Positions 4,567 through 25,110 of a stretch of DNA of 64,000 bases are shown here, in pieces. The stretch comes from Pseudomonadota bacterium (GTDB lineage: Bacteria; Pseudomonadota; Alphaproteobacteria; Sneathiellales; Sneathiellaceae): assembly GCA_024743055.1 (NCBI GenBank), contig JANSXH010000003.1, positions 228,384 through 292,383 of the forward strand, given 5' to 3'. Position 1 is the stretch's first letter. The number at the start of each line of letters is the position of its first letter. The position numbers were made by a program, and so were the translations under genes. The notes under the pieces are model-generated. The model saw nothing but the letters and a program-made list of their open reading frames with translations, did not search any database and was not told where the DNA came from.

Positions 4567-4597
4567 GGACGGTCTTGCTCAGCCGGCAGGACCGTCC
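4567..4597. terminator. Inverted repeat between convergent genes, possible bidirectional terminator
   Basis: ggacggtc (4567-4574) / gaccgtcc (4590-4597), perfect 8-bp arms, overlaps 3' end of the minus-strand regulator gene. Confidence 0.35.
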
Positions 4598-6741
4598 GAC
4601 AAGCCTGCTTTTTCAAGTCCCTCTCGGAAGTGCTTCGCGACATTTGCATCTTCAGTCACACCGTGCCGAACCAACCATTCCGCAATGCTGAAATCGGGTT
4701 GTAGGCCCAGGATAAAAGCCTTTTGCTCTTCAGCTTCTTTCATTTGGCCAAGCTGAGCATAGCTTCCGGCAAAAGCGACGCGACTGTCCAACACATGTGT
4801 TTCAATGGTTTTCAGGGTGGCGATGGCATCTTCATACTGACCGGCGGCATATTGTGCATTTCCGAGGCCATGTCGATACCATTCCGCATGGTAGGGGTTT
4901 AGCCGCATTGCCTGTTTGACGGTTTTAACGCCCTCTGGTGCATCACCGGTCAAAAAAATCATGTTCCAGCCCCATTCCGCCATCACATCGGCATGGTTGG
5001 GGTTAAGTGCGAGAGCCGTCTTGTAGGAGTCTATCGCTTCCTCGATCTGACCAGTGATCTGATAATAGTCAGCCAGGATCCAGTGGGCTTCGGCTTCAGA
5101 CCGGTCGAGGGCGACGGCCTGCTTGGCGGCTGCGAAGCCGGTTTTCAATGCCGTATCGGGATCTTCAATCCATCCATAAAGCCAACCGAGATATTTGGCG
5201 AAGGCGATACACATATAGGCCCGCGAAAATTGTGGATCAAGTTCTGCTGCCTTTTCACAGAGCTCTCCCGCATTGGTGATATTCTCAGGGGTGAGATTGA
5301 AGCGGGCTTCACTGGCAAGCAGGAAATAATCGTAAGCCGTCAGATCGACTTTGCGCTTTTGCTTGGCGAGGGACAATCTGTCATGAACGACGCTGCCACC
5401 AAGTCCGGCGATCGCAAAGGCCACTTTTTTTGTCAATTCATCCTGCAGGCCAAAGATGTCGTCTGATTCAACCGAATATCGCTCGGCCCAGAGATGTTTT
5501 CCGGAGAGAGCATCAATAAGCTGGGCGTTCAGCCGGAACTTATTCCCTTCCTTCTGGACACTGCCTTTCAGAACATAATGAACTCCAAGCTGCTCCGCGA
5601 CGGTCTGGATGCCAACAGTCTGGCCCTTGTATCCAAATGTGGAATAGGCAGCAATAACGGCGAGATCGCCAAATCTGGAAAGATCAGTGATAATGTCATT
5701 GGTCAGGCCGTCGACATATCGTTCCTGGCCGGGATCATTGCTGAGATTGACCAAAGGCAGCACGGCGATCGACGGTTTTTCTGGCAGAGGAAACGCCATG
5801 CGCTCGAGTGAAGCAGGCTCTTCGCTTTGGGCGCTCTGATCCGGCCAGAAAAACAAGGCTCCGATAATCCCGAGGCAGGCACATAGCGCAACTGCCACAA
5901 TCCAGGAGTTCCGATGTGTCTTAGAAAGCGTTGTCTGTGCAGGACTTGCTTCTCGTGGGTACTTCTGATGTCGCGAAACTGTATCCGAAGCTGTTAATGA
6001 CCCTGCCTCTTCAGGTGCTGACCGGATCAGCAAGACGGTTTGTTCTTCCGGAGCCACGCCAAGCTCTTCTTTCAAAGCAGCCTCGCAACTTGAAAATTGT
6101 TTTGCAGCAGCCGTGCTGCGTCCTTGTTTCAGGTATATACGGATCAGGCTGCGATGGGCTTCCTCATTCGTTCGATCACTCGCCAAGAGGCGAGTGGCAA
6201 GGGAGATCGCATTTTGAAAACTTGTTTCGGATGTCGCCAACAGGGACAGTTGCTCCACCAGATGGCTTGCGCTGGCATTTAGGCGCCGCCGCTCATTTCC
6301 GGCCCATTCTTCAAAGGCATCGTCCGGGATATCTATTCCGGACAGAAGGTCCCCCTTATATATATCAGCTGCTTGGGCCAGGGACGCTTCATCTCCTGCC
6401 GCTAGAAGTTGCTCAAAGATTACGACGTCAGAGGACACCACACTTTCTTTCAGACACAGACTTTGCGTATCAACTTCAAAGGCGGTTGCGGCATCTTCCT
6501 CCAAAAAAGCCTTGCGGATATCAACTAATGCTCTGCGCAAACTTCCCGCTGCCTGTTCATCGGCGCGGTCGCTCCAAAGGAGCCGGCGTAATCGTTCTCT
6601 GGGAACTTTCTGATCAAGATGAAAGGCAAGATAGGCGACTACGAGTGCGCTTTTGCGGGTGCGCAAAAGATGTGAATTGCCCGACAATAAACCGGTGTCA
6701 CCGAACAATCTGATTTCAACTTTTTCCGGCATGGATCTCAC
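4579..6741 (-). CDS. Membrane-anchored BTAD/SARP-like transcriptional regulator with periplasmic TolB-like and TPR domains
   Basis: N-terminal OmpR-like wHTH (EIRLFGDTGLL..LRTRKSALVVAYLAF) plus BTAD region; single TM WIVAVALCACLGIIGALFFW; KPSIAVLPLVNLSNDPGQERYVDGLTNDIITDLSR (TolB-like N domain); C-terminal TPRs. Confidence 0.85.
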   Translation of the reverse strand: MRSMPEKVEIRLFGDTGLLSGNSHLLRTRKSALVVAYLAFHLDQKVPRERLRRLLWSDRADEQAAGSLRRALVDIRKAFLEEDAATAFEVDTQSLCLKESVVSSDVVIFEQLLAAGDEASLAQAADIYKGDLLSGIDIPDDAFEEWAGNERRRLNASASHLVEQLSLLATSETSFQNAISLATRLLASDRTNEEAHRSLIRIYLKQGRSTAAAKQFSSCEAALKEELGVAPEEQTVLLIRSAPEEAGSLTASDTVSRHQKYPREASPAQTTLSKTHRNSWIVAVALCACLGIIGALFFWPDQSAQSEEPASLERMAFPLPEKPSIAVLPLVNLSNDPGQERYVDGLTNDIITDLSRFGDLAVIAAYSTFGYKGQTVGIQTVAEQLGVHYVLKGSVQKEGNKFRLNAQLIDALSGKHLWAERYSVESDDIFGLQDELTKKVAFAIAGLGGSVVHDRLSLAKQKRKVDLTAYDYFLLASEARFNLTPENITNAGELCEKAAELDPQFSRAYMCIAFAKYLGWLYGWIEDPDTALKTGFAAAKQAVALDRSEAEAHWILADYYQITGQIEEAIDSYKTALALNPNHADVMAEWGWNMIFLTGDAPEGVKTVKQAMRLNPYHAEWYRHGLGNAQYAAGQYEDAIATLKTIETHVLDSRVAFAGSYAQLGQMKEAEEQKAFILGLQPDFSIAEWLVRHGVTEDANVAKHFREGLEKAGLSDGPAG

Positions 6742-7963: not shown

Positions 7964-8119
7964 CTGATCCGGATTTACCTGAGGAATTGTTCAGGAGCAA
8001 GCCCCCTCTTTGTAACGACAAACATGGACCTGATCCTTCGCTTCTGATACGACGGAACTGTAAAAAATAAAAATGTCCGGGTGCGGGCGAAAAAACAGGC
8101 CGATGAAAGAGGAAGACAA

Positions 8120-9814
8120 ATGTCCGGAACGTTAAAGGAAAGATCGGGAGGTCAAATCCTTGCGGATCAGCTCGCAATACAAGGCGCTGACATGGTCTTT
8201 TGTGTTCCGGGCGAAAGCTATATAGATGTAATTGACGGCCTCTATAACCATGCCAACAAGATCCGTATGATCAATACCCGCCATGAAGGCGGGGCCGCCA
8301 ACATGGCGGAAGCCTATGGCAAGCTAACAGGTCGGCCTGGTATCTGTATGGTGACCCGGGGGCCGGGGGCAACTAATGCCTCTATCGGCTTGCATACGGC
8401 ATTTCAGGACAGCACGCCAATGATCATGTTTATCGGCCAGGTGGCGCGGGATATGGTCGACCGGGAAGCTTTTCAGGAGATGGATTATAGGCGGGTCTTT
8501 GGCGAAATGGCGAAATGGGTGGCGCAAATTGATGATGTCCGGCGCATTCCGGAATATATCAGCCGCGCCTATCATACGGCCCTGTCAGGGCGCCCTGGTC
8601 CAGTGGTTCTGGCTCTGCCGGAAGATATGCTAACTGATATCGCCGCTGTTGCCGATATCTCCCGTCCTGCCTTAGCACCGGCCATTGCGCCTTCCGCTTC
8701 AGTGATGTCGGATCTCTCGGAACTGTTAGAAGAGGCGGAGAAGCCGTTTATGATTGTCGGGGGTGCGACCTGGTCACAAGCCGCTGTCAACAACATCCAG
8801 GAGTTTGCAGAGGCTAATGGTATTCCCGTCGGTGTTTCCCTTCGATCCCAGGACTGTTTTGATAACCGACATCCGAACTATGCCGGTGATGTTGGCATTG
8901 CCGTCAACCCGAAGCTGGCGGAGCGGATTCGCCAGAGCGACTTGTTGCTGGTAGTTGGGCCACGCCTGGGGGAAATGACGACACAGGGCTATAGTCTGCT
9001 GGATTTGCCAGAGCCCTCACAGAAGATGGTGCATGTCCATCCAGGAATTGAAGAACTTGGGCGGGTCTTCCTCCCCGACCTGGCTGTCAACGCGACAATG
9101 CGTGAATTTGCCAAGCTGGCCAAGGCGCTCAACCCCTCAATATCGCCAGACCGGGAAAGCTGGGTTGCCTCTGCTCATAGTGATTATCTGGAGAGGATCA
9201 AGCCGACAGAAGTGCCTGGCCCCGTCAATATGGGGAAGATTGTCAGTTACTTGAACAGTAGGCTTCCTGAAGATGCCATCGTTACTGCAGGAGCTGGAAA
9301 CTATACAGTTTGGGCTCATCGGTTCTTCCAGCATAAATCCTTTAGAACACAACTCGCGCCTACAAGCGGCGCCATGGGGTATAGTGTTCCCGCAGCAATC
9401 AGCGCTAAACTTACCGCTCCGGAAAGAACAGTAGTTAGCTTTAATGGCGACGGGTGTTTCATGATGCTCGGACAGGAACTGGCAACGGCCATGCAGTTCA
9501 ACGCGCCGGTCATTTTCATAATTGTTAATAACGGGATGTTGGGGACCATACGGATGCATCAGGAGCATGGATATCCGTCCCGCGTCTATGCAACCAGCCT
9601 TTCCAATCCAGATTTTGCCGCCCTTGCGGAAGCATATGGGGCTTATGGTGAAAAGGTCGTTAGAACGGAAGATTTTGCAGATGCTTTTGATAGGGCTTTG
9701 GCCAGCGGTAAACCGGCTATTCTTGAAATGATAGTCGATCCAGAAGTCCTAACCCCTGAGAAGACGCTTTCAGGCGCCCGTGCGCAAGGTGAAGCTGATC
9801 ACCCAACCAGTTGA
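8120..9814 (+). CDS. Thiamine-pyrophosphate-dependent enzyme, acetolactate synthase-like
   Basis: N-terminal GADMVFCVPGESYIDVIDGLY...RHEGGAANMAEAYGKLTGRPGICMVTRGPGATN; C-terminal GDGCFMMLGQELATAMQFNAPVIFIIVNN TPP motif. Confidence 0.9.
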   Translation: MSGTLKERSGGQILADQLAIQGADMVFCVPGESYIDVIDGLYNHANKIRMINTRHEGGAANMAEAYGKLTGRPGICMVTRGPGATNASIGLHTAFQDSTPMIMFIGQVARDMVDREAFQEMDYRRVFGEMAKWVAQIDDVRRIPEYISRAYHTALSGRPGPVVLALPEDMLTDIAAVADISRPALAPAIAPSASVMSDLSELLEEAEKPFMIVGGATWSQAAVNNIQEFAEANGIPVGVSLRSQDCFDNRHPNYAGDVGIAVNPKLAERIRQSDLLLVVGPRLGEMTTQGYSLLDLPEPSQKMVHVHPGIEELGRVFLPDLAVNATMREFAKLAKALNPSISPDRESWVASAHSDYLERIKPTEVPGPVNMGKIVSYLNSRLPEDAIVTAGAGNYTVWAHRFFQHKSFRTQLAPTSGAMGYSVPAAISAKLTAPERTVVSFNGDGCFMMLGQELATAMQFNAPVIFIIVNNGMLGTIRMHQEHGYPSRVYATSLSNPDFAALAEAYGAYGEKVVRTEDFADAFDRALASGKPAILEMIVDPEVLTPEKTLSGARAQGEADHPTS

Positions 9815-9869: not shown

Positions 9870-10505
9870 ATGATCGATTTTTATACTTGGAATACTCCAA
9901 ACGGCCGCAAGGTGTCTATTCTGCTTGAGGAGCTAGGGCTCGATTATACGGTGAAGCCCATAAATATCACCGAAGGAGAGCAGGACGAGCCGGCATTTCG
10001 AGCGATTGCTCCGAACGGAAAAATCCCTGCTATTTATGATCATGAAACAGGAATCCGAATGGCTGAGTCAGGTTCCATCATGTTGTACTTGGCGAAGAAA
10101 GCGGGTACTAACCTGGTCCCGGCGGAGGAACATTCCTACTGGGAGATGATGGAATGGATTATGTGGCAGATTGGAGGGCTGGGACCGATGTGCGGTCAGG
10201 TTCATCATTTCACTAAATTCAATCCGGGCAAAGCTCCTTATGCCGAGGAGCGTTATCTCAAGGAAGCAAAGCGTCTCTACGGGGTGCTTAACAAGCAGCT
10301 TGAAGGACAGGATTATATTACCGGCGGATACAGCCTTGCGGATATCGCCTCCTGGCCCTGGATATCAAGGTTTGAATGGCAGACTATTGATCTAGATGAC
10401 TATCCGAACGTGAAGGCCTGGTACAACAGAATTGCGGCACGGCCCGCCGTACAGAAGGGATATCATGTCCCAAATTTCACCCAGGATATACCAACAGCGG
10501 ATTGA
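9870..10505 (+). CDS. Glutathione S-transferase family protein (YfcG/GstB-like)
   Basis: MIDFYTWNTPNGRKVSILLEELGLDYTVKPINI, NGKIPAI, ESGSIMLYLA. Confidence 0.88.
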   Translation: MIDFYTWNTPNGRKVSILLEELGLDYTVKPINITEGEQDEPAFRAIAPNGKIPAIYDHETGIRMAESGSIMLYLAKKAGTNLVPAEEHSYWEMMEWIMWQIGGLGPMCGQVHHFTKFNPGKAPYAEERYLKEAKRLYGVLNKQLEGQDYITGGYSLADIASWPWISRFEWQTIDLDDYPNVKAWYNRIAARPAVQKGYHVPNFTQDIPTAD

Positions 10506-11005: not shown

Positions 11006-11890
11006 ATGAACGGATTATTTGTTGGTGAAGGAACGCTCCTCATTCAATGCGCGGAAGAGTTCCGTGATATAGGTGGAGAGATAGCCGGCGTTTTGAGCAG
11101 TACCCCGATGATACGGGACTGGGCAAAATCTGAAGGTATCCCTGTATTTCAGTCTCCTCAAGACAACGAGCTGTCGGATCTTAGATTTGACTATCTGTTC
11201 AGCGTCGTAAACGTCAAAATACTTCCACATGACCTTCCAGTTCAGGCCTCCCGCTTGGCTGTTAATTTTTTTGATGGACCTTTGCCAGTCTATGCAGGTG
11301 TAAATGTTACCTCTTGGGCGATCATGCAGGGTGAAGAACGCCATGCTGTCACTTGGCATGAATTTTTAGACACAACCGATGCCGGTCGTATTCTGAAGTC
11401 CAAACAGGTCGATATCGCACCTGATGAAACATCCATGACACTGAACGCCAAATGCTATGAGGCGGGTCTGGACTCCTTCAAGGAACTGATTAGGGATCTG
11501 AAAGATGACAGCCTAGCGCCACAAGAGCAATCTGGTGAAAAAACATTTTATGACGCACTCAAAAGGCCAAAAAACCTTGGTCTGTTAGATTTTTCCACCC
11601 CTTCAGCAGAAGTTTCCGCATTGGTTCGTGGTTTGGATTTTGGTGATTATCTGAACCCGCTTGGGCGTGCGAAATTCTGGACCGGTCAAGAAATGGTATT
11701 TGTTGGGTCGCTGGCCCTTATCGAGAAGACTTCTACGGCAACTGTGGGTGAGGTCGTTTCACTCGGTGATCAAAGCCTTTCGGTAAGCGGCACAGACAAA
11801 GATTATGCCTTAACGGGTCTTACGGACGAAAAAGGTGCGCCTGTCCGGCCTAATGCCTTAGGGCTTGCGAAAGGCTCCGTTCTTCCGGCG
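11006..11890 (+). other. Domain: formyltransferase-like (Fmt/ArnA-type fold), probably active-site degenerate
   Basis: Similarity to (I/V)NFHDGPLPxYAGxNVTSWA pattern, but sequence reads N87-F88-F89-D90. Confidence 0.75.
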
Positions 11891-14800
11891 CTTGATCCTG
11901 TTCCAGCAGATCTTGCCACCGCTGCTGCCAAGGCAGAGGCCTATTGGCAGAGCCAGATCAATCAATTGCAGCCGGCCCAGTCCCCGTATCCTTCTAATCG
12001 CGATATGGCGATAGGCGCGGTTAAAATTCCTGTACCTGTCAATGGATCTCTTACTTCGCAACAGGCCGCTGCCGGTTTTATGGCCTGGATCGGCCTCCTT
12101 AACGGAGCTGAAACAGTTTCCATTGCTGTAAGCTTTGGAGAGGCGCCTTCTCATCCTGTCGTTGCCAAGGATCAACTGGTCACCATGACCATTTCTGCTT
12201 CCCAAACGGCAGCAGATTTTACAGAGGCATTTACTGATAGCGTAGCAGTTGGGGAAGCTGCAGGTCCCAGGTCCATTGATCTTGTGTCGCGCATATCAGA
12301 CCCGGCCGCACGTGACGCAGCACTAGAGACCTTGACGACGGCCGTTTGTGAAGGCGAGGCAGAGGATGATGTTCTTCTTGCCGGTCGCAACCTGATCCTT
12401 GCGCATAGCTCGACAGGTCTTCGTCTGATTGCCCGGACCGGCCTTTATTCAAAAGATATCTTCGCTGCAATGGGATCAGATCTCGGGTTCTTCCTGTCTG
12501 CTTTTGCTGCAGGCTCAGAGACAAAACTCACAGAGTTGCTGCTGAGCGAGCCGGTTACCGGCAATACGGACATGTCATGCATGGGCATCGATTATCCTGA
12601 TGATCTGCGGGTTCATGAAGCGTTTGAACTGCAGGTCGCGAAAACGCCCGATGTCTCCGCTCTAGAAGCAGACGGAGAAGTTCTCACCTATAAACAGCTG
12701 GATGAGCGCACCGATATTCTTGCTGCGGCCCTGATGGCGCGTGGTGCCGGACCTGGTACCGTGATTGGCTTATGTCTGGAGCGATCCGCTGATCTAGTTA
12801 TTTCCATGCTGGCAATTCTTAAGACCGGGGCAGCTTATCTACCTCTTGATCCGTCTTATCCAGCGGAACGGGTTAGCTTCATGATTGAAGACAGCGCTAC
12901 GCCGATTATTGTGGCCAGCCCCAAAACAGAGTTTAAGTTCCGCATAGATCCAAGCAAGACAATCTATCCGGATGCCAAAGGGGAAGGATTTGCGGCACCA
13001 AAAGGGGATCCGAAAGAACTTGCCTATCTGATGTACACTTCAGGATCCACGGGAATTCCGAAAGGTGTTATGGTAACCCATCGCAATCTGGTGAATTTCT
13101 TCACCGGTATGGATTTGACGGTCCCCGCAGATGGAAAAGTACGTTTGCTGGCGATTACTTCTGTCTCTTTCGATATTTCGGTTCTGGAAATTTTCTGGAC
13201 CCTTGCTCGCGGATATACGATCGTTCTGCAAACGGATGGGGCCTCTTCCATGGCGGTGCCGGGCTTCAGCCTGTTCTACTTTGCCTCGGAAGTGTCTGGA
13301 ACGGGACCGGAAGCCTATCGGCTTTTACTTCAAGGCGCAAAATTTGCTGATGAAAACGGCTTTGAGGCTGTATGGACACCGGAGCGGCATTTTCATGCCT
13401 TCGGCGGCTTATATCCGAATCCGACAATCAGCTCCGCTGCCGTTGCCTCAATCACAGAAAATGTCGACGTACGGGCGGGATCCTATGTATTACCATTGCA
13501 TCATCCTGTTCGGGCAGCAGAAGACTGGGCTCTAGTCGATAACATCTCGAACGGCCGGGCTGGTATTGCCATCGCCAGCGGCTGGCAACCCAATGATTTC
13601 ATTCTTAACCCCCAGAACTTTGACGACCGTAAGGACGTTATGCTGGACGGTATTGATTTGTTGCGTAAGCTTTGGCGCGGTGAGTCGGTGTCTTTCCCTA
13701 ATCACAAGGGTGAAGAGATTGAAGTGACAACCTTGCCGCGACCGGTAAACGGAGAAATTCCTCTCTGGATCACCGCAGCTGGAAACCCGGAAACCTTTGC
13801 GGCGGCAGCTGAAAAGGGATGCTATGTCCTAACCCATCTGCTCGGCCAGAAATTTGAAGATGTTGCCGAAAAAATCCGCGCCTATCGGGTTGCCTGGCAG
13901 GAAGCCGGACATCCTGGAATGGGCAAGGTGTCCCTGATGCTACATACATTTGTCGGCGAGGATGAAGATCACGTCCGTGAGACGGTCCGCGATCCGATGA
14001 AGCAATATCTGAAGAGCTCGGTTGATCTCTTGCGCCGTGCATCCTGGAGTTCTCCAACATTCAAGCAAAAGGCAGACTCTACCGGCATGACGCCGCAAGA
14101 GGTTTTTGAGAAGCAAGAGCTGACAGATGAAGAAACGGATGCCCTTTTGACCCATGCTTTCGAGCGGTATTATCAGACGAGCGGTCTGTTTGGTACACCG
14201 GAGAGCTGTCAGGAACTTGTTCGTGAAATCGCAAAGATGGGTGTCGATGAGATTGGCTGCCTGATCGACTTTGGTGTCGATACAGATCTCGTGATGGAGC
14301 ATCTGAAATACATCAATGAACTTAAAAACAATCTCATTGCCGAAGGTGGTGTTGCCCGTCAGGCTTCTGTCGCGGAGCAGATTGTCGAGCAGGACATAAC
14401 CCATTTCCAATGCACGCCTTCTATGGCGTCATTCCTGGTCGCCGAAGAAGCAGGCCGGACAGCCCTCGGAAAATTGGATGTAATGATGGTCGGTGGAGAG
14501 GGCTTTCCGCCGGATCTCGCACGGAACCTTCGCAAGAATCTTGATGGCGCCCTGCTCAATATGTATGGCACAACTGAAACAGCTGTCTGGTCTTCCGTTG
14601 CCCGGCTCGATACGGTTGAAGAAACCATTCCCTTGGGAGAAGCAATCGCCAATACGGTCTATACGGTACGCAATACTCATGGTCAGATTCTTCCCTCCGG
14701 TGTTGCCGGTGAGCTTTGGATCGGTGGTGTTGGAGTTGCTGACGGTTACTGGAACCGGGCTGAATTGTCTGCTGAGAGATTTCTCGATTCTCCAGACGGC

Positions 14801-15517
14801 TTGGTCTATCGCACCGGCGACCTGGTTCGGCATATGCCGGAAGGGCGTCTGGAATTCCATGGACGGATGGATAACCAGGTCAAAGTTCGCGGTCATCGCA
14901 TAGAACTTGGTGAAATTGAAGCGGCTCTTGGATCTCTCGATCAGGTAAAGGATGCTGCGGTCACCGTATTTGAAAGCGGGTCCAGTGATAAACGCCTCGT
15001 TGCCTTTGCAACTGCTGCGCCAGGTCATCGCATTGAGCCTACGGAAATTCGCAAACAGCTTGCAGACCTCTTACCAGAATTCATGACTCCTTCACAGGTC
15101 GTCGCCCTTGAGGTAATGCCTGAAACACCAAACGGGAAGATTGATCGCAAGGCCCTGCCGCAACCAAAAGCGCAGAGCGCCGCCTCAACCGAGACGGCCA
15201 GCAGCGATACAGAGGCGGCAATTTCCAAAATATGGTGTGAAGCATTGGGCATGTCGGAAGTCGGCGTAACCGATAACTTCTTTGATCTAGGCGGGCATTC
15301 CTTACTTGTGGTGCAGGTACAACGCCGGCTGAAGGAGCTGTTTGACAAAGAAGTGGCCATCACAGACATGTTTAGGTTTTCAACCATTCAAGCTTTGGCT
15401 GGCCATATTGATGGCGAAAAAAGCGAGACTCAAAACACCGCTGCCATGCGCGGAGCCCAGCGTGCGGCTGCGAGAAGGAGCCGTCTCGCCCAAAGGACCG
15501 GGACATCTGTACAATAA
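11006..15517 (+). CDS. Non-ribosomal peptide synthetase: formyltransferase-like / truncated condensation-like / A domain interrupted by luciferase-like monooxygenase / carrier protein
   Basis: FT-like NFFDGPLPVYAGVNVTSWAI; A-domain LMYTSGSTGIPKGVMVTH, FDISVLEIFW, NMYGTTETAVW, GELWIGGVGVADGYW, YRTGDLVR, NQVKVRGHRIELGEIE, NGKIDRKAL; inserted LLM domain (FSLFYFASE...WTPERHFHAFGG.YPNP...LHHPVRAAEDWALVDNISNGRAGIAIASGWQPNDF); carrier motif DNFFDLGGHSLLVV. Confidence 0.93.
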   Translation: MNGLFVGEGTLLIQCAEEFRDIGGEIAGVLSSTPMIRDWAKSEGIPVFQSPQDNELSDLRFDYLFSVVNVKILPHDLPVQASRLAVNFFDGPLPVYAGVNVTSWAIMQGEERHAVTWHEFLDTTDAGRILKSKQVDIAPDETSMTLNAKCYEAGLDSFKELIRDLKDDSLAPQEQSGEKTFYDALKRPKNLGLLDFSTPSAEVSALVRGLDFGDYLNPLGRAKFWTGQEMVFVGSLALIEKTSTATVGEVVSLGDQSLSVSGTDKDYALTGLTDEKGAPVRPNALGLAKGSVLPALDPVPADLATAAAKAEAYWQSQINQLQPAQSPYPSNRDMAIGAVKIPVPVNGSLTSQQAAAGFMAWIGLLNGAETVSIAVSFGEAPSHPVVAKDQLVTMTISASQTAADFTEAFTDSVAVGEAAGPRSIDLVSRISDPAARDAALETLTTAVCEGEAEDDVLLAGRNLILAHSSTGLRLIARTGLYSKDIFAAMGSDLGFFLSAFAAGSETKLTELLLSEPVTGNTDMSCMGIDYPDDLRVHEAFELQVAKTPDVSALEADGEVLTYKQLDERTDILAAALMARGAGPGTVIGLCLERSADLVISMLAILKTGAAYLPLDPSYPAERVSFMIEDSATPIIVASPKTEFKFRIDPSKTIYPDAKGEGFAAPKGDPKELAYLMYTSGSTGIPKGVMVTHRNLVNFFTGMDLTVPADGKVRLLAITSVSFDISVLEIFWTLARGYTIVLQTDGASSMAVPGFSLFYFASEVSGTGPEAYRLLLQGAKFADENGFEAVWTPERHFHAFGGLYPNPTISSAAVASITENVDVRAGSYVLPLHHPVRAAEDWALVDNISNGRAGIAIASGWQPNDFILNPQNFDDRKDVMLDGIDLLRKLWRGESVSFPNHKGEEIEVTTLPRPVNGEIPLWITAAGNPETFAAAAEKGCYVLTHLLGQKFEDVAEKIRAYRVAWQEAGHPGMGKVSLMLHTFVGEDEDHVRETVRDPMKQYLKSSVDLLRRASWSSPTFKQKADSTGMTPQEVFEKQELTDEETDALLTHAFERYYQTSGLFGTPESCQELVREIAKMGVDEIGCLIDFGVDTDLVMEHLKYINELKNNLIAEGGVARQASVAEQIVEQDITHFQCTPSMASFLVAEEAGRTALGKLDVMMVGGEGFPPDLARNLRKNLDGALLNMYGTTETAVWSSVARLDTVEETIPLGEAIANTVYTVRNTHGQILPSGVAGELWIGGVGVADGYWNRAELSAERFLDSPDGLVYRTGDLVRHMPEGRLEFHGRMDNQVKVRGHRIELGEIEAALGSLDQVKDAAVTVFESGSSDKRLVAFATAAPGHRIEPTEIRKQLADLLPEFMTPSQVVALEVMPETPNGKIDRKALPQPKAQSAASTETASSDTEAAISKIWCEALGMSEVGVTDNFFDLGGHSLLVVQVQRRLKELFDKEVAITDMFRFSTIQALAGHIDGEKSETQNTAAMRGAQRAAARRSRLAQRTGTSVQ
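13258..14330 (+). other. Domain: FMN-dependent luciferase-like monooxygenase inserted in the adenylation domain
   Basis: LLM-family motifs lie between A-domain motif FDISVLEIFW and the downstream NMYGTTET motif of the same ORF. Confidence 0.88.
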
Positions 15518-15537
15518 TAGTATTTTTTGACAAAATG

Positions 15538-15568
15538 CTCGGCAAGCTAGTGCTTGGAAACATCCGAG
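15538..15568 (+). other. Compound stem-loop in NRPS-PKS intergenic region
   Basis: ctcgg (15538-15542)/ccgag (15564-15568) and caagc (15543-15547)/gcttg (15552-15556). Confidence 0.4.
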
Positions 15569-15595
15569 AATAAAGTAGCAGCATAATTGGGAAAC

Positions 15596-18500
15596 ATGAC
15601 TGACAGCGCGATAGAGACAGGAGCTTCCGAAAAGATTGCCATTGTTGGAATGGCAGGAAGGTTTCCGTCTGCGCGCACTGTTGATCAATTTTGGCGGCTG
15701 ATTGCCAGCGAACGCATGGGAACCCGCTGGTTCACCGAAGAAGAGCTGTTGGCAGAAGGGGTCAGCCAGGCGGAGTTGGCAGACCCGGCCTATGTTCGCG
15801 CGGCTAATTATGTACCGGATATGGAATGTTTTGATGCCGGTTTTTTCGGCTTTTCGCCGCGAGAAGCGTCTATCCTGGATCCGCAGCATCGCCATTTCCT
15901 AGAGGTCTCCTGGGAGGCTTTTGAGGACGCGGGTCATATGCCGGAGAATTTTGACGGCAGAGTAGGCGTCTTTGCGGGATCCGGCATGCAGGCGTACATG
16001 CCCTTCAATCTTCTGACAAATCCTGACCTGGTTGAAGAAATTGGCATGTTTCTGCTCCGTCATACAGGTAATGACAAGGATTTTCTGACAACACGGCTCT
16101 CTTATCTCCTGAATCTTCAGGGTCCATCCGTCAATGTGCAGACGGCCTGCTCTACTTCTTTGGTCGCGGTTCACCAGGCGGCGGCAAGCCTATTGTCGAT
16201 GGAATGCGATATGGCCTTGGCCGGTGGGGTCACCATAGAATTGCCGCATCGCCACGGATACAAGTTTGCGGGGGGTGAAATTCTATCGCCAGATGGTCGC
16301 TGTCGGGCATTTGACAATGATAGTCAAGGCACGGTTTTTGGATCCGGCGCTGCTGTCGTTATTTTACGGCGTCTCGAAGACGCGATCGCCGACGGCGATG
16401 ACATACGAGCAGTTCTGTTAGGTTCTGCGGTAAATAATGATGGCGCGCAAAAAGCCGGTTATCTGGCGCCCAGTGTCGATGGACAGGCGGAAGCAGCGGC
16501 AGAAGCCCTCGCGATTGCCGGCGTGGATGCCGACACGGTGACCTATGTGGAGGCTCATGGAACTGGAACTCCCGTCGGGGATCCTATCGAGCTGGCGGCG
16601 TTATCGCAGGTATACGAGGCGGGCGGAACCGGATTTTGCGGCATCGGCTCCGTAAAAACCAATGTCGGTCATCTGGATACTGCCGCTGGTACGGTGAGTT
16701 TGATCAAGGTTGTTGAATCCTTGCGTCATGAAACCATTCCGGCATCTCTGCATTACGAAACGCCGAATGAACGCTTTGATATTGCGTCCAGTCCATTTTA
16801 TGTAGTCGATAAGTCCCAGCCCTGGCCGCGGCAGGAAGCTCCACGCCGGGCAGCTGTAAATTCTCTTGGCGTCGGCGGAACCAATGCGCATGCGATTGTC
16901 GAAGAAGCTCCGCTCCGACCAAAAACTGTCCATGAGGATATTTGGCGTATTCTACCTTTTTCAGCACGGACACCAGATACCCTCGAAGGGCTGCGGCAGA
17001 AATGGTGTGGATTTCTGGACGACAATGAAGAGCTACCAGTACTTGCCGATGCTGCCTACACATTGAAACATGGTCGCCGGGAGTTTAACTCTCGGATGGC
17101 AGTAGTAGCAAAGGATGGCAGCAGTCTGAGCGAGGCCATGTCTGGCCAGCTATCGTCTAGAGTTGCGAAAGGGACCGCTCCCAAGGGTAACCCGGATGTC
17201 GTTTTCATGTTTCCCGGAGGCGGGGCTCAATATCCGGGTGCTGGCGCAGGTTTGCTGGAGAGCTCTGAGACCTTCAAGGCCGCCGTAGATGATTGCTTTT
17301 CGCAAATGCCGGACGATGCCCCAGCAGATCTGAGAATGATGATGTTTGAGCGCGCGTTGACCGATGATGCGGCTCGCGAGAAGCTCGAAATGTCCGGATA
17401 CGCCATCCCGGCTCTGTTTATTCTCGAATACGCCTACGCCCGAATGTGGCAGGGTTGGGGAATAGAACCTTCGGCGGTTTTTGGGCATAGTGCCGGTGAA
17501 TATGCTGCAGCGGCAATCGCCAATGTCATGTCTGTTCGCGATGCCCTTAAAATTGTCACCTGGCGTGGTAAGGTCATGGATGCAGCTGCGGCCGGCGCTA
17601 TGAGCGTTATTCCTGCCAGTCGTGACAAAACTCTCGAGCTGGTGGGGGATAGCCTTGATATCGCCGCGTTGAACGCCAGGGACTTATGCGTAGTTTCAGG
17701 AGAAGTTTCTGAAATAGACGCATTGGAAAGCCGCCTTGCAGGAACCGAGTATGAGCCGACACGGGTTCGCATCAATGTTGCCGCCCATAGCCGAATCCTT
17801 GATGATCAGCTGGATAATTTTCGTGGCGGAATTCAGGATGTCAGTCTTAAAGCGCCGGAAATTCCCTTTGTATCCAGTTTGCGCGGAGACTGGGCTGATG
17901 AAGGTGATTTTGAAACCATCGACTATTGGGTAAATCACTTGCGGCACACCGTACTATTTGCGGATGCGGTCGAGACTATTTTGAAAAAACCAAACCAGAT
18001 CATCCTTGAAGTTGGACCGGGACAGACACTGGGACCGCTCACCCAGATGAGCGAAGCTGAAAATAGTCCGTTGGCGGTTTTGGCGTCAGGGCGTCTGCCA
18101 AAGGACACTGAAGACGACTATGTTGTCGCTCTGACAACGGCGGGCGCTATTTGGGCCCATGGTGGGAAGCTTGATTGGAGTAAGCTACCGGGTGCCAATA
18201 GCGGGCAGAAGGTTTCCCTGCCAACATACGCCTTCGCCAAAGAGCGGCATTGGATTGAGCCGGGGACGGGTGCAAAGCAGGCTGAAGAGACTGCAATCTC
18301 GCATCCTGTCGAGTTGAAACGGGCTGAAAATCCAGAAGACTGGTATCAGACCCTGCATTGGGTCGATGCGCCGCTTCCACCGGAATCTCCAGTAAGAAAT
18401 CAGGTCTGGCTCGTATTTCACGGAGACGATCCGCTTTCAGAAGCGCTGATACAGGAGCTAAAAAGCCGGGATTGTGTGTGCTATGTGGTTCGTCCAGGCA

Positions 18501-21500
18501 GCGAATTTTCTGTGGGGGAACAGGCGTATCGTGTCCGGCCTGGTGTTTCTGAAGACTATGAGGAATTGCTAGCGAAGTTCCCGAAACAGCCGACACATAT
18601 CTCTCATCACTGGGCTTTGGGAGAGATGAGACCCGGATCACAGGACTGCCTTTTTGATAGTGGTTTCTGTCTGACACGTGCCATTCAATCGGCTGACCCA
18701 GCCGAAAATATTCATTTGACCTTCGTCGGGTCCGGTTCGGTATCCGTCAAAGATGAAGCGGTTACAAATCCTGAACTGGCGACATTGCTGGGTCCTGTCC
18801 GGGTCGCGCCGCGCGAAATCTCCGGCCTGTCCACACAATATATTGATATTGAGGAAGCTGCGGATTTCAAAGGGATGGCCATGTTGTTGCTGGAAGAGCA
18901 TGACGTCGGGGCCATGGAAGACAGGATCGCCTATCGTCAGGGCGCCCGATACACCGAACAGCTTGCGTCCTTGAAGACAGAAGTAACGGCTGAAGTTCCG
19001 AAAAAACTTAGCCGGTCCGGCTGCTATGTAATTACTGGCGGCCTGAGCGGGATTGGTCTTGCGCTGGCGGATTATCTTGGCAAGACGGTACAAGGTCGAA
19101 TAGCGTTGCTTGGCCGTACGGCAATGCCGGAGCAATCAAATTGGGACGAGATAGTAAAGGAAACGCCAGGGTCGTCCGAAGCGCGGGCTATCATGACCAT
19201 TCGCGATATTACAGCTGCAGGAGGCGAGGTGCTGACAGTAGCGGCAGATGTCGCTGATACAGAATCCCTTGCTAAAGCCCTCAATCAAATACGGGAGAAG
19301 TTCGGAGAGGTTTCCGGATTGTTCCACGGTGCAGGCATCATTGATGATGCCCCTTTGATGATGAAGTCTCTGGAGGACGCCCACCGTGTCATGTCTGCAA
19401 AAGTGGACGGCGGCAGAAACCTATCAACCCTGATGCCCGACGGATCCATAGATTTCTTCGCGGTATTTTCATCCACCTCAGTCATCACGGCCCCTCCAGG
19501 CCAGGTGGATTATGTTGCCGCGAATGCCTATCTGGAATCTTTAGCAGCCTCAAGAGAAGACGGATTAGCCATATCCTGGGGAGCCTGGCGGGATATCGGA
19601 ATGGCGTCCAGAGCCTATGGCGGTATTGAGGGAAGTGACAAAGGCCCGCATCCTCTTCTCGGCCCTAAACAGTTTGCGGAAGATGGCACCATAAGCTTCA
19701 CGACTCTCTATGATCCCGAAGCTCTTTGGGTCTTGAATGAGCATATCGTTGGTGGCGTACCGGTTCTGCCAGGCACAGGGTATATTGAGATGGTGCAAGC
19801 CGCCATGGCGTCTGCTTTTGAGGGCAAAGCCTGGGAGATGCAGTCTTTGTCGCTGGCCAGCCCTTTGGCATTTCCAGATAACAGACGGCTCCATGTAACC
19901 GTCAGCCTTATCCCGGAAGACAAAGGCTATGAGTTCCGGGTCGAAAGTGCGGCGACACCAGATGGCGCGCAGACGGAACATTGCCGCGCCCTTGTCAAAA
20001 CAATACGCAAAAGCGACCAAGAACTGCCAGCCACCTTCCAGAAACCTTGTGAAACAAGCTTGTCTGAAAAAAGCGGTCACGACTCTCAGGAAAACCTGAT
20101 CGATTTCGGTCCTCGATGGGACAATATTGGAGATATCCGTACGGGTACGGACGTGATTGAGGCAGACTTCCGTTTGGCGGACGAGTTTATCGCGGATCTC
20201 GAGGTTTATTGCGCCCATCCTGGACTGACTGACGAAGCGGCAACCATAGGTCTTAATCTGTTAGCAGATGTGGGAACAGAAGGGGCCTTCTATGCACCTA
20301 TGTCCGTGGAGCGCATTCGAATCCTTGGGCCTTTGACGAAATCCCTCAAATCGAAGGCAAAAATGGTGGCGCAGACACCGAAGCGGTTTGCCAGCTTTGA
20401 TGTTGTTATCTTTGATGATACAGGCAACGCTGTCATGATTCTGGAAGGATTTGCCCTGCGCCGGGTTGAAGGCAGTAGTTTTGAAGCTGACGAAGGTTCG
20501 AGTGCCCTGGTTGACAAGATAATCTCTCAAGGGATTAAGGCATCGGAGGCGCCGGAAATCTTTGCCCGGTTGCTCAATTCAGAGAACCGGCAAGCATTGG
20601 TATCGCCGACATCTATTTTGGATCTGCGCCGGGAAATGATGCGTGGCGCCGCTCCCCGCAAAAAAGCTGCCGCGTCGGACGGGGAGGCCCTTACCGCGGA
20701 TTATGGAAACGCCGTCGAACAGAAAATTGCTGAATTCTGGCGGGATCTTCTTGGCGTCGAGCAACCCCAACCAGATGACGATTTCTTTGATCTTGGCGGC
20801 CATTCGCTAGCCGCCGTTCGGCTTTTTGCCAAAATCCGTAAAGAATATGAAACCGATTTGCCCCTGGCGACCTTGTTTGAGGCACCAACCTTACGGCAGC
20901 TATCGGAAGTTGTTGTTTCTGAAGGCGCGATTGACTTAGGCACGGTATCCGGCGATTCAGAACAGCCTGTTTCCGAACCTGCCAAGAAAGGATGGACACC
21001 GCTCGTCCAGATTACAAAAGGAGAAGACGGATTAAAGCCGTTATACCTGGTTCATGGTGCAGGTGGAGATGTCCTCACTTTCCGGTCTCTTTCAAGTTAT
21101 CTAGATCCTCGTTTGCCTTTCCTTGCTTTGCGGGCAAAGGGGTCCAGTGGTGACATTGAAATAGACGAAACCATCGAGGAAATGGCAGCGACATATTTGA
21201 AAGCTGTGAGGGAGCATCAGCCGGAGGGCCCCTATTCCCTCGGGGGATACTCTGGAGGCGGAAACATTGCCTACGAAATGGCGCAACAGTTGGTTGCTTC
21301 CGGCGAAACCGTGGATCAAATAATTCTCTTTGATACTCTTTCTGCAGATGCTCTTATTGACCCGCCCGGTTTGCTAAGACGTCTTTGGGAAATTCGTCAT
21401 TGGGGCATAAAGGATGTCCTGTCCTGGCCAAAACGCAAGATTGAGAACTATATTGCTCAGGCAATTTTCAAGAAAAGCAATCTTACCAAGGTCGTCGAAG

Positions 21501-21799
21501 ATCATGTAGCTGCAGGGGAGCGAATACCGGCGGAACTGATCGAGCATCGCATGACGACAAATTACGTCCAGGCGGAACACAATTATGAGCCGAAACCTTA
21601 TGATGGCGATATCGTAATTCTGCGTGCCCTTAAAGTGAAAACAGAGTTTCTGGCAGTTGGCAGGAATCTGGGTTGGGACAATCTTGTTTCTGGTGAAATT
21701 ACCGTCTATGACTTCAATTGCAATCACTTCGATATGATGCAGGACCCGACGATCGGTGCCATTGGTGACGTGCTTAATCACACTTTGCTAGACGACTAA
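15596..21799 (+). CDS. Type I polyketide synthase, single module KS-AT-KR-DH-ACP-TE
   Basis: KS TACSTSLVA, EAHGTGTPVGDP, KTNVGHLDTAAG; AT VFMFPGGGAQYPG and GHSAGEY; KR YVITGGLSGIG and DYVAANAYLE; DH HIVGGVPVLPG; ACP DDFFDLGGHSLAAV; TE GGYSGGG. ATG at 15596 (TTG alternative at 15587). Confidence 0.94.
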   Translation: MTDSAIETGASEKIAIVGMAGRFPSARTVDQFWRLIASERMGTRWFTEEELLAEGVSQAELADPAYVRAANYVPDMECFDAGFFGFSPREASILDPQHRHFLEVSWEAFEDAGHMPENFDGRVGVFAGSGMQAYMPFNLLTNPDLVEEIGMFLLRHTGNDKDFLTTRLSYLLNLQGPSVNVQTACSTSLVAVHQAAASLLSMECDMALAGGVTIELPHRHGYKFAGGEILSPDGRCRAFDNDSQGTVFGSGAAVVILRRLEDAIADGDDIRAVLLGSAVNNDGAQKAGYLAPSVDGQAEAAAEALAIAGVDADTVTYVEAHGTGTPVGDPIELAALSQVYEAGGTGFCGIGSVKTNVGHLDTAAGTVSLIKVVESLRHETIPASLHYETPNERFDIASSPFYVVDKSQPWPRQEAPRRAAVNSLGVGGTNAHAIVEEAPLRPKTVHEDIWRILPFSARTPDTLEGLRQKWCGFLDDNEELPVLADAAYTLKHGRREFNSRMAVVAKDGSSLSEAMSGQLSSRVAKGTAPKGNPDVVFMFPGGGAQYPGAGAGLLESSETFKAAVDDCFSQMPDDAPADLRMMMFERALTDDAAREKLEMSGYAIPALFILEYAYARMWQGWGIEPSAVFGHSAGEYAAAAIANVMSVRDALKIVTWRGKVMDAAAAGAMSVIPASRDKTLELVGDSLDIAALNARDLCVVSGEVSEIDALESRLAGTEYEPTRVRINVAAHSRILDDQLDNFRGGIQDVSLKAPEIPFVSSLRGDWADEGDFETIDYWVNHLRHTVLFADAVETILKKPNQIILEVGPGQTLGPLTQMSEAENSPLAVLASGRLPKDTEDDYVVALTTAGAIWAHGGKLDWSKLPGANSGQKVSLPTYAFAKERHWIEPGTGAKQAEETAISHPVELKRAENPEDWYQTLHWVDAPLPPESPVRNQVWLVFHGDDPLSEALIQELKSRDCVCYVVRPGSEFSVGEQAYRVRPGVSEDYEELLAKFPKQPTHISHHWALGEMRPGSQDCLFDSGFCLTRAIQSADPAENIHLTFVGSGSVSVKDEAVTNPELATLLGPVRVAPREISGLSTQYIDIEEAADFKGMAMLLLEEHDVGAMEDRIAYRQGARYTEQLASLKTEVTAEVPKKLSRSGCYVITGGLSGIGLALADYLGKTVQGRIALLGRTAMPEQSNWDEIVKETPGSSEARAIMTIRDITAAGGEVLTVAADVADTESLAKALNQIREKFGEVSGLFHGAGIIDDAPLMMKSLEDAHRVMSAKVDGGRNLSTLMPDGSIDFFAVFSSTSVITAPPGQVDYVAANAYLESLAASREDGLAISWGAWRDIGMASRAYGGIEGSDKGPHPLLGPKQFAEDGTISFTTLYDPEALWVLNEHIVGGVPVLPGTGYIEMVQAAMASAFEGKAWEMQSLSLASPLAFPDNRRLHVTVSLIPEDKGYEFRVESAATPDGAQTEHCRALVKTIRKSDQELPATFQKPCETSLSEKSGHDSQENLIDFGPRWDNIGDIRTGTDVIEADFRLADEFIADLEVYCAHPGLTDEAATIGLNLLADVGTEGAFYAPMSVERIRILGPLTKSLKSKAKMVAQTPKRFASFDVVIFDDTGNAVMILEGFALRRVEGSSFEADEGSSALVDKIISQGIKASEAPEIFARLLNSENRQALVSPTSILDLRREMMRGAAPRKKAAASDGEALTADYGNAVEQKIAEFWRDLLGVEQPQPDDDFFDLGGHSLAAVRLFAKIRKEYETDLPLATLFEAPTLRQLSEVVVSEGAIDLGTVSGDSEQPVSEPAKKGWTPLVQITKGEDGLKPLYLVHGAGGDVLTFRSLSSYLDPRLPFLALRAKGSSGDIEIDETIEEMAATYLKAVREHQPEGPYSLGGYSGGGNIAYEMAQQLVASGETVDQIILFDTLSADALIDPPGLLRRLWEIRHWGIKDVLSWPKRKIENYIAQAIFKKSNLTKVVEDHVAAGERIPAELIEHRMTTNYVQAEHNYEPKPYDGDIVILRALKVKTEFLAVGRNLGWDNLVSGEITVYDFNCNHFDMMQDPTIGAIGDVLNHTLLDD

Positions 21800-21800
21800 C

Positions 21801-22631
21801 TTAATTGCTCGACGCGTTATCCGTCATAAAGTCCTTCATCTCATCCATCAGGCCCAAAGCGTGCAAATTCAGATGGGTTCCATCCTGATATCTGACATAC
21901 TTTTTTGGTTCAATCGCGGCTTGAAACAAACGATCAGCTGACGAAACATTGATTGCAATATCCTTTTCACCATGTACCAGCAAGAACGGAGCGTTTATTT
22001 TCGTTATTCGATCGATTGAGTCATAGCGCTCTTTCCACATAAAATAGCAAAAAGGCAAACCGCGATACCTGCCGGTAAAGTAATCGCAAAACCGGCCAAA
22101 GGCCGCTGCGAGTATAAGGCCACCAACTTCACGATCCTCGGCAAGGCGAGCTGCGACACCGGAGCCAAGGCTATAGCCGTATGAAAATCGCATTGTCGCC
22201 GGGACGTCGGTTTCAGCTAGATCATTATATTGATCATACAAAGACCTGGCGTCAGCAGCGAAATTCTCCTCGGACGGAGTGCCCCCCATACCACTTGACC
22301 TTCTGTAAACCAACGCTGCTAAGCCATAGCCATCTTCCGTAAAAGTCTTCAATCTCTCGGCTGCAGGACCGATCGCGGACCAATTGCCCATAAAGTAGAA
22401 AAGAACCGGCTTTCCTGGATCGGGTGCTTTTACCCAGGCCGCGACTTTTTCTCCATCTTCAGAGACAAATTCCACGACCTTTACGCCATCAAAACCGATT
22501 TCTTCCGGCGTTGTTACGGTTTGGTGGAATTGATAAATGGAAATGTAAAAAAAATGAAAGGCGATATAGGTCCCGGCAAGACCCAACACCAAAAGAGCCC
22601 CAAGTAGGATAAGGATGTTTTGTACAGACAT
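21801..22631 (-). CDS. Membrane-anchored alpha/beta hydrolase
   Basis: N-terminal hydrophobic anchor MSVQNILILLGALLVLGLAG; GYSLGSGVAARLA nucleophile elbow; APFLLVHGEKDIAI; ATG at 22631 has AGGAG upstream. Confidence 0.8.
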   Translation of the reverse strand: MSVQNILILLGALLVLGLAGTYIAFHFFYISIYQFHQTVTTPEEIGFDGVKVVEFVSEDGEKVAAWVKAPDPGKPVLFYFMGNWSAIGPAAERLKTFTEDGYGLAALVYRRSSGMGGTPSEENFAADARSLYDQYNDLAETDVPATMRFSYGYSLGSGVAARLAEDREVGGLILAAAFGRFCDYFTGRYRGLPFCYFMWKERYDSIDRITKINAPFLLVHGEKDIAINVSSADRLFQAAIEPKKYVRYQDGTHLNLHALGLMDEMKDFMTDNASSN

Positions 22632-22714
22632 GTGGGCTCCTGATCTCAATCCGAACGCAACTTGGGCAGGATAGTGCAAGTAAGAGTACAATCGGTCAAG
22701 TCAGATTATATCGG

Positions 22715-22815: not shown

Positions 22816-24075
22816 TTAGCGAGCCATTTCCTGAAGGCGTTTTTCGAGAAATTCCTTTTCGGCGACATTGTTGGAAAGGGAAATAGCCTGTTCATAAGCC
22901 GCGCTGGCTTTTTGTTTGTTGCCGACACGGCGATAAAGATCGGCGAGGGCGGCATGAAAGGGCTGATAGTCATCCAGTGTTCCATCACAGACAATCTCAG
23001 ACAGCATCTCTAGTCCTTTTTCCGGCCCTTGGGCAAAAGACAAGGCAACAGCGGCGTTGAGCTGAACGATTGACGTCGGCTGATATTCAAAGAGTTTTTC
23101 ATAGAGAAGAGCAATTTCATGCCAGTTCGTCGCTTCATGACTTTCAGCTTCCGCATGGACGGCACTGATTGCCGCCTGAATCTGATAAGGTCCTGGCGGG
23201 CCCATAACCAGCGCCGCTTTTAGAATTTTGACCCCTTCAATAATTTGGTCCCGATCCCAACGGCTTCTATCCTGGTCGATCAAGGCAATGAACATCCCCT
23301 GATCATCCGTCCGTTCTGTTCTTCGTGAGTCATGGAGTAGCAGCAAGGAGAGGAGACCAGCGGCTTCTGCAACATCCGGCATCAATCTGACCAGCAGACG
23401 GGCCAGCCGAATAGCTTCGGTGCAGAGATCCGCCCGAGTGAGAGTATCGCCTGAAGTGACCGCATATCCTTCGTTATAGATCAAATATATAACAGAAAAT
23501 ACAGATTGAACGCGCTCTGCCAGTAGCTCTGGACCGGGGATATCATAAGGAATATTGGCGAGCTTGATTTTCTTTTTGGCGCGTACAAGGCGCTGGGCCA
23601 TGGTTCCTTCTGAAACAAGGAAGGCCCGGGCAATCTCTTCAGTTGTCAAACCACCCAAGGTGCGCAAAGTTAAAGCAATTCGAGCGCCTTCGCTCAGTGC
23701 CGGATGGCAACAGGTAAATATCAAGCGCAATCGCTCATCTGGAATATCCTGATCCATATGGTTTTCAGTATCGTTAAGTCCGGCTTGTTGTTCCAAAGAC
23801 AAGAGCAGCTCATACTCGGCGCGCTTACGGCTAAAATTTGCATCTCGACGAAGCCTGTCGATGGCTTTTCGGCGGGCTGTCTGCAGCAGCCAGGCTCTCG
23901 GTGATTCTGGAATACCTCGCGGGCCCCAATGTTGGAGTGCCGCGATCAATGCTTCTTGCATAACATCTTCTGCCAGCTCCATATCCCGTGTGTAGCTGAC
24001 GAGAATGGACAGCACCCGACCCCATTCCTGGCGGACCACATCTTCGATGATCCTGGCGGTGCTGTCCTGTTTCAT
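22816..24075 (-). CDS. ECF RNA polymerase sigma factor with C-terminal helical/TPR extension (ECF42-like)
   Basis: VVRQEWGRVLSILVSYTRDMELAEDVMQEALIAALQHW; RAWLLQTARRKAIDRLRR; TLGGLTTEEIARAFLVSEGTMAQRLVRAKKKI; adjacent YCII-family gene. Confidence 0.92.
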   Translation of the reverse strand: MKQDSTARIIEDVVRQEWGRVLSILVSYTRDMELAEDVMQEALIAALQHWGPRGIPESPRAWLLQTARRKAIDRLRRDANFSRKRAEYELLLSLEQQAGLNDTENHMDQDIPDERLRLIFTCCHPALSEGARIALTLRTLGGLTTEEIARAFLVSEGTMAQRLVRAKKKIKLANIPYDIPGPELLAERVQSVFSVIYLIYNEGYAVTSGDTLTRADLCTEAIRLARLLVRLMPDVAEAAGLLSLLLLHDSRRTERTDDQGMFIALIDQDRSRWDRDQIIEGVKILKAALVMGPPGPYQIQAAISAVHAEAESHEATNWHEIALLYEKLFEYQPTSIVQLNAAVALSFAQGPEKGLEMLSEIVCDGTLDDYQPFHAALADLYRRVGNKQKASAAYEQAISLSNNVAEKEFLEKRLQEMAR

Positions 24076-24098
24076 ATATCGGTCCTGTTTTTGGAGGC

Positions 24099-24446
24099 TT
24101 ACAGCTCCCAAACCGGTCTGACCTCAATAGTGCCAAATTCTGCTGTTGGGATCTTTGAGGCGTAGTAAAGCGCTTCATCCAGATCCTTGCAATTCATAAG
24201 ATAATAGCCACCTAGTTGCTCTTTGGTTTCGGCAAAGGGACCATCGATCGTTTCTGTCTTACCATTACGGACCCGCACGGAGGTTGCCGTTTCTACCGCT
24301 TGCAAGGCGTTTCCACCCTCAAAAACATTATTCTGCTTGGCTTCCTCGGTCATGGCCATATAGCCTTCCATCAGCTTCCCGAATTCCGGTGTCTCATAGA
24401 CAGGACCCGATCCCTCGGCGCTATAGATTAAAAGTAAATACTGCAT
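24099..24446 (-). CDS. YCII/DGPF-family protein
   Basis: MQYLLLIYSAEGS...ETIDGPFAETKEQLGGYYLMNCKDLDEAL; partner of adjacent ECF sigma. Confidence 0.9.
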   Translation of the reverse strand: MQYLLLIYSAEGSGPVYETPEFGKLMEGYMAMTEEAKQNNVFEGGNALQAVETATSVRVRNGKTETIDGPFAETKEQLGGYYLMNCKDLDEALYYASKIPTAEFGTIEVRPVWEL

Positions 24447-24480
24447 GTTGTTCTCCTGTTTTATGTTGTGTTTGCTGTGA

Positions 24481-25110
24481 TTAGGCGGCTTGTCCGAAAA
24501 AGGCATGAACATCCTGATAGAAGGCCTGTGGTACAAGGGCTTCGCGCCAGGCAATCAGGTTGGGGTATTTTTTGAGGTCGATACCGACGGCCTCTGACGG
24601 ATCGATGGTGGCCAGGAGCAGGATATCGGCAATACTTAAGCTGTCGCCGGCGAGATACTTGGAGCTACCGAGCTGCTGATCGATTGCCGGTAAAAATCGC
24701 TCCAGAAATTCTTCTCCGGCCGCCAGGGAGGTTTCATCAACGGGGAAGCCGAGCTGCGGCGCCAGGAGGCGGTTAAATACGACCCGGCCATAAGCCATAT
24801 AAACATGGACTGACACGAATGAACACCATTGGTCGATCTTGGCTTGTTTAATCAAGTCGTCAGGATACATATCAGAGCCCGCCTTTTTGCAAAGATACTT
24901 CATTATGGCGGTGCTTTCAAAGAGGGTCACATCCCCATCTTCGATTGCGGGCATTTTCCCGACCGGATGTCGTTTTATATGTTCCGGGGCGCGATGTTCA
25001 CCCTCCGGCGCGTTCAATTCATGATACTCGAACTCAAGTCCAAGAGCGTTGGCCAGCATCCGGACAGCGTTTGAAGGCTGTGACAGATGAAACCCATATA
25101 TGTTTAGCAT
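24481..25110 (-). CDS. Glutathione S-transferase family protein
   Basis: YGFHLSQPSNAVRMLANALGLEFEYHELN, VGKMPAIEDGD, FESTAIMKYL. Confidence 0.88.
   Translation of the reverse strand: MLNIYGFHLSQPSNAVRMLANALGLEFEYHELNAPEGEHRAPEHIKRHPVGKMPAIEDGDVTLFESTAIMKYLCKKAGSDMYPDDLIKQAKIDQWCSFVSVHVYMAYGRVVFNRLLAPQLGFPVDETSLAAGEEFLERFLPAIDQQLGSSKYLAGDSLSIADILLLATIDPSEAVGIDLKKYPNLIAWREALVPQAFYQDVHAFFGQAA

Follow-up and report, generated by a model that had tools for sequence, protein, structure and literature searches.

This work describes a compact biosynthetic unit from a marine Sneathiella bacterium that comprises an NRPS, a single-module type I PKS, and a co-inherited hydrolase. On balance, we slightly favor reading the whole chain, from loading to release, as an oxidized-glycine NRPS-PKS line. 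The system is assembled exclusively from known domain types, and its architecture is shared by bacteria ranging from alphaproteobacteria to Myxococcota, Ramlibacter, and other groups. A search of the open-access literature yielded neither a description of this family nor a product, in keeping with the initial annotation of this DNA, which had recognized no characterized pathway. At ∼11.7 kb, the unit is small enough to be rebuilt in its entirety in a laboratory host. Knowing its product would allow many loci to be annotated, among them those in marine exopolysaccharide clusters, and would show whether oxidized glycine can serve as the starter of a PKS.

The window, i.e., the whole 64,000-nucleotide stretch of DNA that was analyzed, is part of contig 19 of a 3.6-Mb draft genome, and the closest homologues in named records are all from Sneathiella. 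The NRPS and PKS genes are both intact (Table 1). As annotated initially, they lie on the same strand, with 78 nucleotides between the NRPS stop codon and the PKS ATG, and the open reading frames and Pfam/NCBIfam matches agree on a KS-AT-KR-DH-ACP-TE protein following the NRPS. For the NRPS, these matches comprise an AMP-binding domain split around a luciferase-like monooxygenase (TIGR04020), plus PP-binding. The NRPS ends in a basic tail that is found in most members with a separate PKS next and is absent from three loci (L066, L102, and L105), a distribution that fits docking to the PKS. It had rightly been noted that no PPTase is adjacent; an Sfp-sized PPTase (235 amino acids) is encoded elsewhere in the host genome, and this activity is supplied to the pair in trans.

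Table 1. Features of the NRPS-PKS-hydrolase unit (positions refer to the window)
Feature	Position	Strand	Basis or remark
NRPS: formyltransferase-half condensation domain-A(LLM)A-T, 1503 aa	11006-15517	+	
Formyltransferase-fold domain, residues 1-290; retains Asn87 and Asp125, has Phe89 in place of the catalytic His	11006-11875	+	Pfam, AlphaFold2/Foldseek, LgrA alignment
Condensation-domain half-fold, residues 296-520, without HHxxxDG	11891-12565	+	AlphaFold2, Foldseek, motif scan
Adenylation domain, first part, up to A4 (FDIS, residue 722)	12593-13255	+	
FMN-dependent luciferase-like monooxygenase (TIGR04020), lying between A4 and A5	13265-14326	+	
Adenylation domain, second part, from A5 (NMYGTTE, residue 1185); code DILQMGMVWK	14339-15175	+	
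Thiolation domain, GGHSL at residue 1429	15218-15409	+	
Basic C-terminal tail of NRPS, putative docking to PKS	15437-15514	+	Arg-rich tails alike in most relatives
Type I PKS: KS-AT-psiKR-KR-DH-ACP-TE	15596-21799	+	ORF 15587-21799 (2070 aa) from TTG 15587; ATG 15596 agrees with relatives
KS (ACSTS, AHGTGT, NVGHLD)	15629-16906	+	
AT (GHSAGE, VAAHS)	17201-18121	+	
KR structural (prefix) subdomain	18284-18976	+	NF047870
KR (GGLSGIG, FSST, YVAANAY)	19019-19594	+	
DH (HIVGGVPVLP, TDEAA), positioned after KR	19649-20473	+	
ACP (GGHSL)	20720-20911	+	
TE (GYSGGG, NHFD)	21038-21796	+	nearest outside genus: Ramlibacter TE
Convergent alpha/beta-hydrolase, N-terminal hydrophobic segment, third gene	21801-22691	-	probable ATG 22631

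Within the NRPS, the flavin monooxygenase (FMO) inserted into the adenylation domain scores 497 bits against TIGR04020 (cutoff, 244). The closest solved LLM domain is that of PuwE (6ket; E value of 2.4e-109), which comes from another pathway. With 89% identity within Sneathiella, the FMO ranks with the most highly conserved domains of the protein. The 10-residue adenylation code was read by alignment, and across all 82 members of the family it follows the pattern DILQ-x-G-x-x-WK. Glycine-activating A domains have the signature DILQLGxxWK, and we take the family pattern to be this glycine pattern. The code predicts that the A domain activates glycine, which supports the substrate originally proposed. 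An FMO insertion at the same place, between motifs a4 and a5, is found in the glycine A domains of the myxothiazol and melithiazol synthetases (MtaG/MelG), where the FMO hydroxylates the glycyl alpha carbon and C-N cleavage yields a glyoxyl thioester (PMC10204066). Solanimycin B, on the other hand, retains alpha-hydroxyglycine, and solanimycin A shows that the FMO step can be skipped (PMC10204066). MtaG and MelG are terminal modules, followed by a TE that releases an amide, whereas the Sneathiella module starts the line, contains a formyltransferase and a half condensation domain, and passes its substrate to a KS. A single-protein variant was also observed at two loci (L102 and L105), where FT-A-LLM-A-carrier-TE is encoded and no PKS part was found; it resembles an MtaG-type module that stands alone and carries a formyltransferase.

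The NRPS had been described as an A-LLM-A-T module; the A domain split around the LLM and the T domain stand, but two domains at the N terminus had been missed. The first gives a Formyl_trans_N match of 39.9 bits (Pfam cutoff, 26.1). AlphaFold2 modeled residues 1 to 290 with a pLDDT of 93 (using 39 relatives), and Foldseek matched them to FMT and ArnA over ∼300 residues, with TM scores of 0.75 to 0.80 by target length; as modeled, this region is a complete formyltransferase fold. For the second domain, residues 296 to 520 were modeled with a pLDDT of 95.9, and the top Foldseek matches were all condensation-type domains (TM of ∼0.6 to 0.7 of the query). A motif scan of the NRPS found no HHxxxDG, as reported initially, and with half of a condensation fold only, the protein is not a canonical C-A-T module.

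Formyltransferases employ a catalytic triad of Asn106, His108, and Asp144 (PMC4786211, PMC3261824). At the position of the His, all 11 Sneathiella proteins have Phe (Asn87-Phe89-Asp125) and all 71 other members have His; this full conservation arises partly by construction, given that the scan pattern (A[VI]NF[FH]DGP) chose for the triad motif. The pattern nevertheless let in F and H equally, and the His is likewise present in the five plasmid loci retrieved by tblastn. The Asn/His/Asp triad is shared by the other members and incomplete in Sneathiella, and the architecture does not demand it. Mean identity within Sneathiella is 66% for the formyltransferase versus 79 to 89% for the A, LLM, and T domains. 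In groups that have the His, the formyltransferase is likewise one of the domains that change faster, so lower identity alone is no proof of decay. Judging from the triad, N-formylation has probably been lost in Sneathiella, with the domain retained as a scaffold together with the half condensation domain; Phe89 might serve some other role.

Alignment relates this domain to the N-terminal formyltransferase on the starter NRPS module of LgrA (linear gramicidin), which differs in belonging to a peptide system and in having an active F domain. In conglobatin and oxazolomycin biosynthesis, formyl-glycyl loading modules (F-A(Gly)-PCP; CongA and OzmO) feed a KS and thus present the same formyltransferase-glycine A-T order ahead of a PKS (PMC4504003). 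These systems have several PKS modules and no described FMO insertion, whereas the Sneathiella system has an FMO, one PKS module, and a formyltransferase without the catalytic His, so that an active formyltransferase of the OzmO/CongA type is not predicted. The Sneathiella NRPS unites the MtaG/MelG and OzmO/CongA layouts.

In the PKS, all catalytic motifs checked are present (Cys-His-His of the KS, Ser-His of the AT, and those of the KR, DH, and ACP), as in an elongating type I module. These motifs support the original prediction of one extension, active KR and DH domains, and release by the TE. The KR-before-DH order is unusual, and dehydration is therefore not assured. Malonate, named initially as the extender, is unproved: the AT motif is VAAHS, which is neither the malonyl (HAFH) nor the methylmalonyl (YASH) motif and thus does not fix the extender. 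The best structural relatives of this AT, 5yda and ZmaA 4qbu, have AAHS in common.

The domain content, the motifs, the three-gene unit, the loss of the His, and the conservation follow directly from the sequences or structure models; from these we infer the substrate, the timing of oxidation, the extender, the hand-over between proteins, and the product. The A domain would put glycine onto the T domain, where, by analogy with MtaG/MelG, the FMO would hydroxylate the bound glycyl unit at its alpha carbon ahead of extension. For most family members, formylation of this unit by the N-terminal formyltransferase is probable; the Sneathiella domain lacks the catalytic His. The KS would then accept the oxidized C2 unit, one extender would be added, and the KR would act, probably followed by dehydration. 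Finally, the TE would free a small product, which the hydrolase would edit or process. The initial annotation had placed extension first, leading to a 4-aminocrotonyl intermediate. Given the placement of the FMO and its precedent in MtaG/MelG, oxidation probably comes before extension, which makes 4-aminocrotonate doubtful; the KS may well accept something other than glycyl, and what is released may be neither a gamma-amino acid nor a lactam. More tentatively, the PKS could be primed by alpha-hydroxyglycyl or, after deamination, glyoxylyl, with the Sneathiella starter having shifted from an N-formylated form to a free amine or aldehyde.

Although the locus had been regarded as a two-gene unit, the conserved hydrolase is a third gene. 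In one other Sneathiella genome (G023), the same position is an empty site bounded by the same genes in unchanged order (oxidoreductase, TRAP, TPP enzyme, and GST genes on one side; sigma factor, YCII, GST, DctP, thiM, and MFS genes on the other), while the NRPS-PKS-hydrolase triple lies elsewhere, beside other genes. In addition, a homologous hydrolase gene lies convergent and directly after the PKS in 7/7 loci of the sister clade (Aliiroseovarius and six more). Because the triple is missing together from the G023 site and the hydrolase follows the PKS in the sister clade, the hydrolase belongs to the unit and, on this gene-order evidence, is co-inherited with the pair. The TPP enzyme (8081 to 9814) and GST (9870 to 10505) were rejected as pathway genes, as both remain in G023 without the triple; a GST of this type is present in all 25 Sneathiella genomes. 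Across unrelated genera with NRPS-first loci, no convincing recurrent neighbor was found besides the hydrolase. An ECF-type sigma factor with DUF6596 beside a YCII-domain protein (22816 to 24554) adjoins the insertion and stays when the triple is absent, and positions 4579 to 6741, separated from the upstream end of the cluster by a few genes, encode a large regulator containing BTAD and TPR domains.

The architecture is not unique; it defines a family that spans several phyla. Eleven of 25 Sneathiella genomes, the host among them, encode the NRPS (68 to 75% identity), as do 7 of 289 alphaproteobacterial genomes drawn evenly. The pair is also present in the cultured S. chungangensis. Scanning GTDB contigs with the N-terminal region of the NRPS gave 566 confirmed candidates, the best 80 of which were retained; these 80 include Rhodobacterales, Rhizobiales, Caulobacterales, Ramlibacter, Myxococcota, Actinomycetota, Planctomycetota, and others. 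The domain strings of both proteins are near-constant across the family, and in the Sneathiella locus both strings are encoded by adjacent genes. Conservation of the pair in so many bacterial groups supports a defined small-molecule system, as the initial annotation anticipated, and the product is likely a defined small molecule.

Two other routes from glycine were weighed against the favored oxidized-glycine line, and we consider each of them unlikely. In one, unmodified glycyl and malonate would be joined, reduced, and dehydrated to a 4-amino-3-hydroxybutyryl or 4-aminocrotonyl unit and released as a gamma-amino acid, lactam, or oligomer, with the FMO acting late or in a minor role. The glycine code and the intact KS, KR, DH, and TE motifs are consistent with this scheme, the probable loss of formylation makes a free amine possible, and solanimycin A offers a precedent for skipping the FMO step (PMC10204066). 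Against it stands an FMO that is highly conserved within the genus and placed exactly as in MtaG/MelG. The other route, no more probable, would convert hydroxylated, unprotected glycyl-T into glyoxylyl-T and ammonia, so that a nitrogen-free C2 aldehyde primes the PKS and a 4-oxo or 4-hydroxy C4 acid or lactone results. Loss of the formyltransferase His takes away an acyl group able to stabilize the hemiaminal, and the myxothiazol and melithiazol FMO domains do yield a glyoxyl thioester (PMC10204066). The family overall nevertheless keeps its formyltransferase, suggesting that nitrogen is normally retained. A further point against this route is that, to our knowledge, there is no precedent for a KS accepting glyoxylyl.

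For Sneathiella, it appears improbable that the product serves as a substituent or precursor of surface polysaccharide, a role suggested in the case of PKS-first relatives. Polysaccharide-type genes (glycosyltransferase, flippase, Wzz, or similar) accompany 37 of 43 PKS-first loci, 26 of which have a PPTase, but are nearby in just 3 of the 34 NRPS-first loci, among which Sneathiella falls; for these counts, one locus (L029) was classed by its minus-strand genes rather than by coordinates, and a few loci come from the same genome. No such gene was seen beside the pair in the window. The PKS-first order is often PKS-GT2-NRPS-PPTase. This block lies within exopolysaccharide clusters, sometimes on plasmids, at loci L113, L114, L116, and L030 and at Rhodobacteraceae loci, and no paper tying the synthase product to the polysaccharide at such loci was found in the open-access literature. 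The Rhodobacteraceae proteins, annotated as "MupA/Atu3671 family FMN-dependent luciferase-like monooxygenase" and "type I polyketide synthase," have the same domain strings as those of Sneathiella but differ in their PKS-first order with GT2 and PPTase, the surrounding polysaccharide genes, and an intact formyltransferase His. Carrying an exopolysaccharide role over to Sneathiella, whose locus is NRPS-first and outside such clusters, is unsupported.

In a FastTree phylogeny of the NRPS, Sneathiella sequences form a single clade, sister to Rhizobium/Aliiroseovarius-type sequences. The PKS proteins of this sister clade, and also that of Phenylobacterium, have an extra C-A-T module ahead of the TE. 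The Sneathiella TE shares ∼40% identity with the Ramlibacter TE and ∼29% with the TE of the sister clade. By this comparison, the ACP-TE arrangement of the Sneathiella PKS looks ancestral, pointing to a gain of the extra module in the sister clade; truncation of the assembly line by loss of a C-A-T module is disfavored on the same identities. The tree also nests the NRPS of L073 (Comamonas sp. KCTC 72670) within the Myxococcus group, with a very short branch, which suggests a contaminated or mislabeled record rather than transfer.
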